This document shows, piece by piece, positions 9,636 to 61,378 of a DNA stretch of 64,000 nt (position 1 is the first letter of the stretch; every line of letters starts with the position of its first letter). The translations under genes were made by a program, and so were the position numbers. Source of the stretch: Chloroflexota bacterium. GTDB taxonomy: Bacteria > Chloroflexota > Anaerolineae > Anaerolineales > Villigracilaceae. The notes under the pieces were generated by a model, which saw nothing but the letters and a program-made list of their open reading frames with translations, ran no database searches and was not told where the DNA came from. The stretch is from NCBI GenBank assembly GCA_013388855.1, contig JACAEM010000038.1, positions 62,001 through 126,000 on the forward strand, read 5' to 3'.

Positions 9636-12458
9636 TCACATCCACAACTTCGCCAATTCATTCAAGGATCGATAATACGGTTCGATACTTGGAATGTAAT
9701 GCGCCTCGTTCTTTGCATGGGGACCGACGCCAGACTGACCCCAAACGACGGCTTGACCACCGGGAGCGAATCGCGCGCTGGTGCCAGGAAGTTTTTTCCC
9801 AATTCTCGCCTCTTCCCCACCCGACGCCTGTTTCACCGCTTCGATTAACGCTTTCAACGCTGGATTCTTCGGATCGCACGCCACACCGTTTTCCATTACC
9901 GAAAAGCGAACTTCCAGTTCGCTTTTCGCGCAATACTCCTCGACCGCAGACCGCAGACCGAGGACATCATCCTGCGGAATGGGACGAATTTCCACGCCCA
10001 AAATTCCCTCCGCGGCAGTGATGTTATACACGCCCGGAGTCCCCACATTGATGAACGGAAATTTTGCCTGCGACTGCCAGCCATCCGCAGCTTTGAGCGT
10101 GAGATGATTGGTAAAAATTTCGCTCAAAGCAGAACGTGCGGCAATGAGTTTTTCGCTGAGATCGCCTGTGCCGGCGATTCCCGAATGACCTTTCGCTCCG
10201 CGCGCAATGACATCGAAACGCATCACGCCGCGATTTTCCACGCAGATTTCGCCGAAGAGTTCGCTCCCTTTTTCGCCGGTCCGTTCGCCAGCAATGAAAA
10301 GAGATGGCTTTAAACCTAGCTCATTCAACACGTGTGGTGTACCCCAGGACTCCGCTTCACCATTTTCCTCGTTGCCAACAAGCAATAAAGAGAGGTTAGG
10401 AAAAGAGTCCATCTTGCCTGCACGCAAAGCATCTTTCATCCAAACCAGATATGTGGCGACGACCGTTTTCATGTCTGCGGCGCCGCGACCATGGAGGTAA
10501 TCGCCTTCGATGCGAGGGATGAACTGGGAGTCGTCGGGGTCTGGTTCGACAACGTCGAAGTGACCGGTGAGGAGGATTTCATTTTCCCCCTCACCCTTAC
10601 CTCCTCTCCCTCCGGGAGAGGGGAACTTGGCAAATACCGCCGGATATTTTCCATCGAAATATTTGACGTCAAGTCCAGCGTTGCGCAGGTAGTCATCAAC
10701 CAGGGAGCCTGCACGATGAACCTCTTCCAATCGTTCATTGGGCGAGGCAGTGACGGATGGAATACGAATCAATTGCTGGGCAAGGTCGAGAATTTCAGAG
10801 GTCTTATCTGGATAGGAGGTTTCGATCACAGCTTGTGTCCTTGAACGGAATTGGATGGGAGGGGTGGGAGCCTGGCGCGCGGCGTCACGACCGCGCTGGA
10901 GGAATTCGGCGATCTTGGAGGCATCGGCGCCGAGAGAACCATAATCGGAGGTAATGCGTTCCACGTCGGCTTTGATCTCCGCTTCGTGCTCGTAGAAAAA
11001 ATCCTTCAGGACACTTACGGGAACTTCATCATTTTCGCCCAACTCCATTTGCAGCCGGGCACGGATCTTTTCAGAGGTGTTGCGCCCACCTGCTGACATT
11101 TCCATGAGCGGCGTCAAATCATTCCACATGTCCAAAGCCTCGGCGAGAGGCTTAAGCTCGTTGAGAGTCCATTTGAGGAAGGCTCGCATCGAGATGGGCT
11201 TTCCTGTCAGCGGGTTTTCAATTTCGGCACGCAAACCATATTGCGCGGCAAGTTTTTCGTTGGCGCGGGCACGGGTGATATCCTCCCGGTCGTAACGGAA
11301 GGAACGGGCAAAGGTTGGATCCGAGTAGATGCGGAGGAGAAGGAGATGCTTGAAAGTCAGATTCGCGATGTCCAGGTTCAGCGAGTGACCACCCTCATCG
11401 GTGCGGATTTCGACGCGTCCCATCGGCAGATTGATGCGCGCCATCAGGTTTTGTTTTTCAATTTGCAATGCCATTTCCTCGGGAGGAGTCGGTTGACCGG
11501 CGGCGAACAAGCCACGGGCGTAGAGAGAGGCGAGTTGGTCGCTGGTGGTGGAGATGATCCGCTCGACAGGTTCGGCAAAACTGCGGGCGCGGACAGGAGT
11601 CCAGTTGTTGTTTCCAAAGCGGACACCGCGCCGGACGAGGTCATAGGAAATTTCGAGGTAGTCGTTGTAGGAACGGTAAAGGTCGGGGAGGTCGATGGCA
11701 GCTGGGTTTGGGAAGGTGAGGTTTCGGATCGAATCGAATTCGGTGAGGGCGACGACGGCGCGTCCACCACGGACCTCAGCCCGCATCGGCGTGGAAGCGC
11801 TGGTAGCGATGAAAAGCGGGGCAAAAGCACGTAAGAGACGAGTGGCTGTAATGTAGAACTCGGACTTGAATTCGTCGAGGTGCTGGTCGCCGCGCTCGGC
11901 AGCGGAGAGGTGCATGAAATCCCAGGCGAAGAGCGGATCGGGCAGGGACATGTTGGTGTGGATGCCGCAGACCGCCAGGCCTCCGTCGTAGAGGTCGACG
12001 CATTTTTCGAGGTAACGGCGTTTGGCAAGACTCCAGTTACCGGGGATGGAGTGGTGACCGATGTCGGTGAGGAAGAGCAGGTTACCGTGCCAGTAATGGA
12101 GACGTTCGCCGAAGTTGATACCCGCGCGATGCAAGGCATTGATGAGCGAGGCTTCCTGTAACCGCGCTTCGTAGATCGCCCCGCGCGGGCTGTAATACGG
12201 GCGCGTCGCCCATTCGATCATCCAGTGGAAGACTTCGAGCTGGCTGAACTGCGCCTGCCACGGCGGGATACACTCGGCGCGGAGGTAATCTACAAAGGAG
12301 TGCTGGCTGGGTCCTGCGCCCACCGTGAGCAAGGGACGCAGGTCTTCATCGAGGAGGTTCCATTCTTGTTCAAAACCGTTGAGTCCGCTGGAGGGTTTCT
12401 CCTTGATGGCTTGTTCGAGGGCAAGGAGGTATTTGTCGGCGAATTTTTGAGGGGACAT
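9636..12458 (-). CDS. Fusion protein: GCS2-like carboxylate-amine ligase + M20 metallopeptidase
   Basis: 940 residues in one frame from ATG 12458. Residues about 1-500 resemble the GCS2 family of glutamate-cysteine ligases and carboxylate-amine ligases: 'GLNGFEQEWNLLD' is the Glu-rich ATP/Mg entry motif, and 'CGIHTNMSLPDP', 'SASTPMRAEV' and 'RVEIRTDEGGHS' are further active-site-like blocks. After a linker, residues about 530-940 form an M20 (ArgE/DapE/CPG2) peptidase with 'LLTGHFDVVEPD', 'GRGAADMK', 'LVGNEENGEAESWGTP' and 'NRGVMRFDVIARGAKGHSG', so the two-zinc site looks intact. An in-frame palindromic repeat (10586-10624) inserts about 13 residues just before the GHFDVV motif. The fusion suggests formation and hydrolysis of a gamma-glutamyl or similar amide by one polypeptide; the actual substrate is unknown. 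Confidence 0.8.
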   Translation of the reverse strand: MSPQKFADKYLLALEQAIKEKPSSGLNGFEQEWNLLDEDLRPLLTVGAGPSQHSFVDYLRAECIPPWQAQFSQLEVFHWMIEWATRPYYSPRGAIYEARLQEASLINALHRAGINFGERLHYWHGNLLFLTDIGHHSIPGNWSLAKRRYLEKCVDLYDGGLAVCGIHTNMSLPDPLFAWDFMHLSAAERGDQHLDEFKSEFYITATRLLRAFAPLFIATSASTPMRAEVRGGRAVVALTEFDSIRNLTFPNPAAIDLPDLYRSYNDYLEISYDLVRRGVRFGNNNWTPVRARSFAEPVERIISTTSDQLASLYARGLFAAGQPTPPEEMALQIEKQNLMARINLPMGRVEIRTDEGGHSLNLDIANLTFKHLLLLRIYSDPTFARSFRYDREDITRARANEKLAAQYGLRAEIENPLTGKPISMRAFLKWTLNELKPLAEALDMWNDLTPLMEMSAGGRNTSEKIRARLQMELGENDEVPVSVLKDFFYEHEAEIKADVERITSDYGSLGADASKIAEFLQRGRDAARQAPTPPIQFRSRTQAVIETSYPDKTSEILDLAQQLIRIPSVTASPNERLEEVHRAGSLVDDYLRNAGLDVKYFDGKYPAVFAKFPSPGGRGGKGEGENEILLTGHFDVVEPDPDDSQFIPRIEGDYLHGRGAADMKTVVATYLVWMKDALRAGKMDSFPNLSLLLVGNEENGEAESWGTPHVLNELGLKPSLFIAGERTGEKGSELFGEICVENRGVMRFDVIARGAKGHSGIAGTGDLSEKLIAARSALSEIFTNHLTLKAADGWQSQAKFPFINVGTPGVYNITAAEGILGVEIRPIPQDDVLGLRSAVEEYCAKSELEVRFSVMENGVACDPKNPALKALIEAVKQASGGEEARIGKKLPGTSARFAPGGQAVVWGQSGVGPHAKNEAHYIPSIEPYYRSLNELAKLWM
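10586..10624. repeat. Palindromic repeat inserted in a coding sequence, copy 1
   Basis: The string runs CCCCCTCACCC...CCTCTCCC-TCC-GGGAGAGG, an inner palindrome with one outer arm. Read on the minus strand it encodes P-S-P-G-G-R-G-G-K-G-E-G-E inside the M20 domain without breaking the frame. It belongs to the same family as the repeats at 26380-26427, 61129-61160 and 61326-61363. Confidence 0.8.
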
Positions 12459-26131: not shown

Positions 26132-27001
26132 ATGCTGACCGATACTCACTGCCATCTCGATTTCAACAAGTTCGATGAAGACCGCGAGGCGGTCATTCAG
26201 CGCGCGTTGGACGCGGGATTGACCCGTCTTCTCATCCCGGCATTGGATCACAAATCGGCTCTTGCCGGACTTCGGCTTGCGGAGGCGCACCCGAACATTT
26301 TCTGCGCCATCGGCTTCCACCCAACAGATCTGGATAAGTGGGAGGAGGCTTCGATTGAGAAATTACGGACTTTAATACTCCCTCACCCTATCCCCTCTCC
26401 CACGGAGAGAGGGACTCAGGGTGAGGGAAAGATCGTCGCCATCGGTGAGATCGGGCTGGATTATTACTGGGTCAAGGAACCGGAGGAACGCGCACAGCAA
26501 CGCGAGGCACTGAAACAGCAGCTTCGACTCGCTGAGGAAGTGAACAAGCCGGTCATCATCCACATGCGCGAGGAGAACGATGCCTGGTTCGGGCAGGCGT
26601 CCATCGATCTGTTGGAAATCCTGTCAGAGTGGCATACGCGATTGATGGCGGAATCAAGCCCGCTCGTGGAAAGACCCGGCGTACTCCATTCCTTCAACGG
26701 GAATTTGGAAACAGCCCGGAAAGCCATTCACCTGGGCTTCTACATCGGTGTGACCGGTCCTGTTACGTACAAAAACGCGGAAGAAAAGCGTCAAATCATC
26801 CGTCAATTGCCCCTGGAACGGCTGCTCATCGAGACTGACGCGCCATTCCTGACGCCCGTGCCGCACCGAGGCAAGCGCAACGAACCTGCATTCGTGGCGC
26901 ATATTGCTGATAAAATTGCAGAAATTCATTCGACAACCCGCGAATGGGTCGGTGAGATCACCACGGCAAACGCCGCGCGCCTATTCGGTTGGGGAGGCTG
27001 A
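26132..27001 (+). CDS. tatD: TatD-family metal-dependent hydrolase with in-frame repeat insertion
   Basis: 289 residues of a TIM-barrel DNase/hydrolase: 'MLTDTHCHLDFNKFDEDR' (metal HxH), 'AIGEIGLDYYW' (metal Glu), 'VIIHMREEND', 'VLHSFNGNLETA' and 'LLIETDAPFLTPVPHRGKRNEPAFV' (metal Asp). Between the first helix region and AIGEIGLDYY the palindromic element 26380-26427 adds 16 codons, giving L-P-H-P-I-P-S-P-T-E-R-G-T-Q-G-E-G; normal TatD proteins have a short loop there. The catalytic residues are untouched, so it may be active. Stop 27001 is 4 bp from the next start. Confidence 0.93.
   Translation: MLTDTHCHLDFNKFDEDREAVIQRALDAGLTRLLIPALDHKSALAGLRLAEAHPNIFCAIGFHPTDLDKWEEASIEKLRTLILPHPIPSPTERGTQGEGKIVAIGEIGLDYYWVKEPEERAQQREALKQQLRLAEEVNKPVIIHMREENDAWFGQASIDLLEILSEWHTRLMAESSPLVERPGVLHSFNGNLETARKAIHLGFYIGVTGPVTYKNAEEKRQIIRQLPLERLLIETDAPFLTPVPHRGKRNEPAFVAHIADKIAEIHSTTREWVGEITTANAARLFGWGG
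26380..26427. repeat. 48-bp palindromic element inserted in tatD, copy 2
   Basis: Outer arms CCCTCACCCT (26380-26389) and AGGGTGAGGG (26418-26427) are perfectly complementary; inner arms CCCTCTCC and GAGAGAGGG flank the centre. The length is a multiple of 3, so translation continues through it. This is the most complete copy of the family in the window. Confidence 0.85.
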
Positions 27002-61123: not shown

Positions 61124-61128
61124 ACCAT

Positions 61129-61160
61129 CTCCCTTTCCGGGAGAGGACCGGGTGAGGGTC
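61129..61160. repeat. Palindromic repeat, copy 3 (inverted orientation)
   Basis: CTCCC-TTTCC-GGGAGAGG and GGGTGAGGG are the same blocks as in 26380-26427, read in the opposite direction. It begins 6 bp after the M16 stop and ends 11 bp before the DUF559 remnant. Confidence 0.8.
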
Positions 61161-61171
61161 CATTTGCCAAT

Positions 61172-61378
61172 ATGGAAGCCGCCAGAACTGAATATCTTGA
61201 ATCGATTGGACGCAAGGTGATTCGATTTACAAATGAGGATGTTCGGTTTAATATCAATGCAGTGGTACAAGAGATAAAAGATGCTTGTGAACGATTAAGA
61301 CAAGAACGAAATTTTCGAGGGAGCGCCCCTCACCCTAACCCTTTCCCCACTGGGGAGAGGGAAATGGAGACCATATGA
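61172..61378 (+). pseudogene. DUF559 endonuclease-like C-terminal remnant
   Basis: The 68-residue frame begins M-E-A-A-R-T-E-Y-L-E-S-I-G-R-K-V-I-R-F-T, matching the last third of DUF559 (Vsr-like) nucleases ('R..YLE..GY.VIRF.N.DV..NI..V...I'), but the N-terminal catalytic part is missing. Its tail 'GSAPHPNPFPTGERE' is the translated copy of the palindromic repeat. It overlaps the next gene by 4 bp (ATGA). The start at 61172 is not supported by a good ribosome binding site. Confidence 0.7.
61326..61363. repeat. Palindromic repeat, copy 4
   Basis: CCCCTCACCC...CTTTCCCCACTGGGGAGAGG carries one outer arm and both inner arms. It encodes A-P-H-P-N-P-F-P-T-G-E-R-E at the end of the DUF559 remnant and stops 11 bp before the next ATG (61375). 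Confidence 0.8.

Follow-up and report, generated by a model that had tools for sequence, protein, structure and literature searches.

BoxC repeats, also called PIT or "triplex motif" (TM, TMECO), were discovered in the 1990s (PMC4666352), and the formation of an intrastrand triplex in vitro is one of their published traits (PMC4666352). In the account of Holder 2015 (PMC4666352) E. coli MG1655 harbours 23 copies, which are always intergenic; the origin of the repeat is given there as unclear, and a look around the E. coli copies yielded no remnants of a transposase or integrase. From Table 1 of the same paper we computed that four of the five published E. coli pairs are arranged as + then −, with 16–27 nt in between. 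Three other systems are of interest for comparison. In REP/RAYT units (PMC2817692) a small gene for a DNA-cleaving enzyme, the Y1 tyrosine transposase, is situated between two inverted palindromes, which are also dispersed genome-wide. Rickettsia palindromic elements of about 150 bp are found in frame in many unrelated genes (PMC10969869). Finally, one DUF559 gene has been assigned to the EDxHD/Vsr-like homing endonucleases (Taylor 2011, cited in PMC9403480). The DUF559 domain is found in Vsr-like endonucleases, and a DUF559 protein causes an SOS response in Caulobacter cells lacking a methyltransferase (PMC12907096); palindromes are not mentioned in the DUF559 literature passages considered here. 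In the open literature we recognised no report joining BoxC-type repeats with a DUF559-like nuclease, or describing in-frame insertion in Chloroflexota.

The window, that is, the whole stretch of 64,000 nucleotides that was analysed, contains a full-length, imperfect palindrome of 48 bp at 26380-26427 (+ strand) within a gene of the TatD family of DNases (26132-27001, +). A partial copy consisting of one outer arm and the hairpin is located at 10586-10624 (− strand) within an M20-peptidase fusion gene (9636-12458, −). The profile E-values are 9.8e-13 and 2.9e-10, respectively, both copies being among the profile's own 18 training sequences. The first-pass annotation had described two related palindromes which are both translated, and this was confirmed: they belong to the same family, and translation uses one and the same phase of the repeat in both, giving the peptides PHPIPSPTERGTQGEG in TatD and PSPGGRGGKGEG in the M20 protein. 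In the M20 copy, though, the second outer arm is largely missing, and this copy fails the two-arm pattern (up to three mismatches), for which the scan of the 64-kb window gave two matches, at 26380 and 61327, against 0.09 in shuffled sequences. The Pfam match to TatD_DNase (5e-82) spans the element, and both PDB homologues that were aligned show a gap at that place; the Peptidase_M20 match starts directly after the element. A position next to catalytic motifs had also been proposed and holds for these two cases, as GEIGLD in TatD and TGHFDVV in the M20 protein follow a few residues after the insert.

Both copies belong to a large family. A genome-wide count gave 42 occurrences of the exact hairpin core and two of the reversed control; together with the profile E-values this places the family beyond chance. 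Searching with a profile built from 18 copies gave 154 strand matches at E ≤ 1, of which those listed reach about E 0.02. Hand-merging, with a best E of up to about 1e-3 and weaker or unlisted matches left out, resulted in about 72 loci in the source Anaerolineales genome. The repeat reaches E 1e-4 in 81 of 101 genomes of the order Anaerolineales, a survey in which at most about 50 candidates were scored per genome and copy numbers saturate; many genomes of the relatives are fragmented. The architecture, a hairpin CCCTCTCCC-loop-GGGAGAGGG followed by a third arm GGGTGAGGG, is found in the same sequence and order in published BoxC (PMC4666352), which is likewise interspersed and of which several E. 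coli copies form inverted pairs. A consensus-like query of 47 bases matched E. coli DNA with 91.5% identity over 47/47 bases, and a query coverage of at least 80% was reached in 61 of 5,426 E. coli genomes. Judged by its sequence, the tatD/M20 element is thus a BoxC / PIT / TM repeat, an already known family. An exact-pattern scan (at least 117 stretches, assigned by record title) extends its range to Pseudomonadota, Acidobacteria, Verrucomicrobia, Planctomycetota, Myxococcales, Chloroflexota and others. No annotated feature lies under the best place in any of the best 60 of 324 E. coli records. The same applies to 37 of the 40 plasmid records listed (of 82; the gene table is incomplete), and in the remaining three the repeat is located within Pseudanabaena genes.

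In the source genome the copies are not confined to intergenic DNA as they are in MG1655. Using a coding model trained on 42 ORFs of the window and at least 45 codons on each side, 39 of the 72 copies were called as in-frame read-through; an earlier run at identical cut-offs had given 38. Of 302 positions drawn at random from these stretches, 222 scored as read-through, so the copies are depleted in genes, yet far from excluded. A majority of copies inside genes and translated in frame is new with respect to published BoxC. Thirty-six of 38 host proteins were scanned with Pfam, the other two overlapping scanned ones, and the position classes were counted by hand. In 18 proteins the element lies within a single Pfam match: HemD, amine oxidase, the LeuRS editing domain, TrpC (IGPS), an IF-2B family protein, TatD, radical SAM, UvrD, the Fmt C-terminal domain, a luciferase-like protein, the MetH activation domain, a PurQ-type GATase_5, an ABC ATPase, GatB, N6-methylase, PGI, a MobA-like protein and Amidohydro_3. 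In a lipoyl ligase the match is split in two and its first stretch ends at the element, and in the remaining 17 the element lies between, before or after Pfam matches. Among 38 phase calls, some of them uncertain, the frame PSPxGRG..GEG is used 19 times, PLPxGEG 14 times and the third frame five times. One UvrD-type helicase gene (contig C15, 134552-135363) contains three in-frame copies, two of them adjacent.

The first-pass annotation had suggested a mobile element that is tolerated in proteins and resembles Rickettsia palindromic elements. Interspersed, insertion-prone and in frame in many genes, the repeat agrees with the first part, but it is not a new family. The resemblance to the Rickettsia elements extends to in-frame insertion in unrelated genes; with 47-48 bp the repeat is set apart from them by comparison with their described length (PMC10969869), and further by the other phylum and by a candidate mobiliser gene.

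This gene, which the first-pass annotation had not associated with the repeat, encodes a DUF559 nuclease. At 61172-61291 (+; hmmsearch 6e-9, L032 1346-1465) the window contains what is left of the C-terminal part of such a gene for a Vsr-like DUF559 nuclease. It is flanked by a pair of degenerate copies that had likewise been missed: a left repeat at 61127-61158 (+), read from the sequence and below the reach of the profile, with the hairpin followed by the GGGTGAGGG arm towards the remnant, and a right repeat at 61326-61367 (−; profile E 0.0012), inverted relative to the left one. The whole region, 61127-61367, lies between two genes and looks like a decayed BoxC-DUF559 unit.

Complete BoxC-DUF559-BoxC units were found in frame inside MetH and ValS of Anaerolineales. 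On contig C3 of the source genome, a single frame runs from the pterin domain of MetH through a pair of BoxC copies into DUF559 and a further BoxC before the contig ends, and the remainder of MetH begins on contig C42. In relatives the unit is uninterrupted; one of them (L364) has a protein of 1415 aa with the domains S-methyl_trans, Pterin_bind, DUF559, B12-binding and activation. DUF559 (PF04480) is furthermore contained in ValS (L376), UvrA (L374) and a UvrD-type protein (L377). Of 24 DUF559 matches in frames of at least 450 aa, 16 have repeats within 150 bp on either side and 18 on at least one side, versus 2 and 4 of 34 matches in shorter frames (Fisher 9e-7); except for the unit on C3, these loci had been picked for their DUF559 score and the length of the frame, and repeats played no part in the choice. 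The six long-frame matches with no repeat on either side include those in UvrA and the UvrD-type protein. In six of ten MetH units (L364-L369) the nearest repeats are inverted on both sides; the profile did not show inverted order in the other four, and the ValS unit has the opposite order. One of the MetH loci (L366) starts with a SAM riboswitch (1-112, Rfam), upstream of metH in G059.

The filled MetH site reads DIDEIINR-[BoxC..DUF559..BoxC]-HETAV, and orthologues without the unit have a short linker instead (DIDEIINRGDFPTKHETAV in L399), so that the clean empty sites looked for are indeed seen at MetH. A pair of sister species, G002 with a filled and G015 with an empty site (L380/L395), has MetH sequences identical at 496/509 and 317/326 positions on the two sides of the site (about 97%). 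This patchy occupancy of the same site is reminiscent of EDxHD/Vsr-like homing endonucleases. Signs of an intein or group I intron with a homing endonuclease were absent: no splicing domain was found in seven DUF559 fusion proteins and no intron in seven loci (Rfam); in contrast to those systems, the unit is simply translated.

The association is not restricted to Chloroflexota. DUF559 was found in 20 of 20 BoxC-bearing Pseudomonadota genomes (by title), which had been sampled via element loci and of which five were already known to have a match before the search. At 30 Pseudomonadota loci with 32 DUF559 matches, repeats lie on both sides in 15 and on at least one side in 22 cases. All 15 two-sided cases are inverted, with the left repeat scoring best on the + and the right one on the − strand and the GGGTGAGGG arm facing the gene, so these units possess the terminal inverted repeats by which MITEs and insertion sequences are recognised. 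They are 418-466 bp long (about 420-470; the L441 stretch contains Ns), and their ends, by eye often AAGCCCC...GGGGCTT, are alike across species. Thirty-seven of 44 elements lie within 200 bp of the DUF559 gene, where 12% of the bases are located (p 3e-27). With a gene on a Pseudanabaena plasmid, in which DUF559 is flanked in frame on both sides, the architecture is present in three phyla. In a record of E. coli KE47 a BoxC copy follows directly after a DUF559 gene. Comparison of a 448-bp Xanthomonas unit with the plasmids gave a repeat-sized piece in one record and no second whole unit.

A tree of 62 DUF559 rows, built on few columns and with many forks left open, contains 27 rows flanked by a repeat on one or both sides. 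Of these, 21 fall into one cross-phylum group (22 rows, 97/90) that comprises the MetH and ValS units and genes of Xanthomonas, Thermomonas and Chromatiales; the BoxC-flanked rows outside are L342, L358, L362, L375, L382 and L389. No BoxC was found in a group of 24 rows of stand-alone Anaerolineales genes. A rule that all DUF559 genes are flanked by BoxC fails, for just two of the 30 best-scoring Anaerolineales loci carry the repeat. The DUF559 profile was built from motif-bearing frames. The strict catalytic motif is present in 8/19 flanked Anaerolineales, 17/30 stand-alone and 26/30 named-genome loci, counts on which no claim rests, and a looser motif in 17/19, 29/30 and 26/30, respectively.

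From these data we infer that BoxC is mobilised by DUF559. Probably, small mobile units exist whose sole gene encodes a DUF559 nuclease (Vsr-like, PD-(D/E)XK); BoxC would form their terminal repeats, and a solitary BoxC would be their non-autonomous version. The nuclease would recognise the folded GC-rich palindrome and cut the DNA, and repair would then copy or move to new sites either the whole unit or, in trans, a solitary BoxC. Insertions into genes would survive if their length leaves the reading frame intact and the element itself reads open, adding a Pro/Gly-rich loop that may be tolerated at surface turns. Loss of the nuclease gene would leave single or double BoxC scars; the + then − pairs of E. 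coli look as in a unit without its gene. The plan is that of REP/RAYT with a different enzyme, DUF559 taking the place of the Y1 tyrosine transposase. BoxC units are inserted inside genes, which is a further difference from REP/RAYT, and the GT(A/G)G head of REP was not seen by eye in the consensus or at the unit ends. We propose that BoxC-DUF559 works like REP/RAYT and is not a member of it. Points that weigh against mobilisation by DUF559 are the target-site duplications looked for by eye and not seen, the scarcity of BoxC at the best-scoring Anaerolineales DUF559 loci, the six long-frame matches with bare flanks, the E. coli control genome with no DUF559 match reported, and the four MetH units and the ValS unit that do not show the inverted order. 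We also lean, by a small margin, towards a wider reading: BoxC across phyla would represent the terminal inverted repeats, and the relics after internal deletion, of a previously undescribed class of very small mobile elements of about 440 bp with DUF559 as the sole gene, each nuclease lineage would have its own co-evolving palindrome, and in Chloroflexota such elements would have colonised essential proteins in frame and without splicing.

Alternatively, BoxC could be independent of the nuclease, moved by something else or spread by replication slippage or template switching, with DUF559 genes targeting BoxC copies. No target-site duplication was seen by eye at the unit ends or at the MetH site, which is in line with such an origin, and BoxC is abundant in E. 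coli (23 copies in MG1655), for whose control genome no DUF559 match was reported. From the control genome it follows that BoxC can persist without DUF559. Against this stand the two-sided Pseudomonadota flanks, inverted without exception and with the same arm facing the gene, the likeness of the unit ends across species, the empty MetH sites, which look free of BoxC, and the other palindromes borne by other DUF559 lineages. We therefore regard an independent BoxC as unlikely.

Palindromes near DUF559 genes are indeed common. A stem of at least 9 within 110 nt on either side was found for 80 of 94 DUF559 genes versus 10 of 375 windows of the same loci (thresholds 9 and 10 were used; 11 misses BoxC, whose stem is shorter), and 23 of 30 stand-alone Anaerolineales loci have a strong palindrome. 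The inverted-repeat score of the flanks exceeds the 95% level of shuffled sequences in 24/27 long-frame, 18/26 named-genome, 12/29 stand-alone and 2/9 plasmid loci. By eye, a palindrome unlike BoxC in sequence but similarly organised lies immediately upstream of the stand-alone Anaerolineales genes and of most of the nine DUF559 genes from the plasmid collection. Just ahead of their start codons, many of the stand-alone genes (L331-L360) carry palindromes of other families, for example of the CCTCCCCAATTT..AAATTGGGGAGG type. Such hairpins might be terminators or attenuators of the DUF559 genes with no role in movement. They are GC-rich, and since a hairpin stem also lies near 19 of 51 ordinary genes (TatD/M20 controls; p 6e-9 versus DUF559 genes) some of the flanking palindromes could be terminators. 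But the units lie in uninterrupted frames within essential genes, whose transcripts a terminator at that place would truncate, and the same repeat is dispersed alone genome-wide; as a general explanation this is very unlikely.

Even less credit can be given to a REP-type RAYT transposase as the mover of BoxC. REP/RAYT units share the plan of a gene between inverted palindromes (PMC2817692), and a search for Y1_Tnp in the source genome and 100 relatives gave some match in 90 of the 101 genomes. However, the single match of the source genome lies in a frame of 544 aa of a kind that is common in the relatives and also occurs in G035, G038 and G053, in which no element reached E 1e-4, and for the source genome this mover is largely refuted. 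The Y1_Tnp domain is located on contig C19 at 74896-75252, about 5 kb from the nearest listed element.

As had been proposed, orthologues with and without the element were aligned, and filled and empty sites were observed for both TatD and M20. Of the 101 genomes 91 have TatD, and the comparison covered 30 of these loci. Among ten of the own genus, five contain the insert (the source genome, G001, G006, G007 and G014; 12 nt shorter in three), four do not, and G003 has an unrelated sequence at the site. In this last gene (L095) about 90 bp of unrelated in-frame sequence replace the loop where others carry BoxC; this part of TatD may attract insertions in general. The element is absent from the orthologues L071-L085, and among 20 loci of other genera BoxC sequence was found in G042 and G051 (L086 and L090), at the same site. 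The BoxC remnant in L090 contains a second, different palindrome, GTCCGACAGT-ACA-ACTGTCGGAC. For M20 the element was seen by eye in 6 of 29 loci, once as a double copy. In LeuRS it occupies the same site in the source genome, in G006 and, in another genus, in G047, and the loop is short in G001, G005, G007, G014, G024 and G025.

The first-pass annotation had reasoned that the same inserted peptide in distant genera would point to ancestral sequence. Such inserts do exist for TatD (L086, L090), but the gene trees demand repeated change: the best trees need four gains or losses for TatD and four for M20 (bootstrap 4-5), and well-supported branches force two in each. A single ancestral insert without later change thus does not fit. 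Together with the LeuRS site, filled in some genomes and short in others, this makes it likely that a site was filled repeatedly or that inserts were lost, and the data do not choose between the two. That the inserted peptides are ancestral loops merely resembling the repeat is practically refuted despite their recurrence at the same site in several genera, given that their DNA matches a genome-wide repeat with 72 loci, many in unrelated genes, that many orthologues have short loops, and that the best trees require several gains or losses.

New here are the in-frame genic copies, the filled and empty sites and the tight flanking of DUF559 by BoxC, all read directly from the DNA. In E. coli MG1655 BoxC is described as always intergenic and without mobility genes nearby (PMC4666352); in the source genome more than half of the copies lie in genes, and a nuclease gene is flanked. 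The DUF559 gene between inverted BoxC copies is a direct candidate for the mover of a repeat of unclear origin, and if this is true, the widespread DUF559 family would gain a role. A bacterium can bear dozens of translated selfish inserts in its core enzymes, among them GatB and one of the aminoacyl-tRNA synthetases, and such inserts matter for gene annotation and for the question of how loops arise in proteins.
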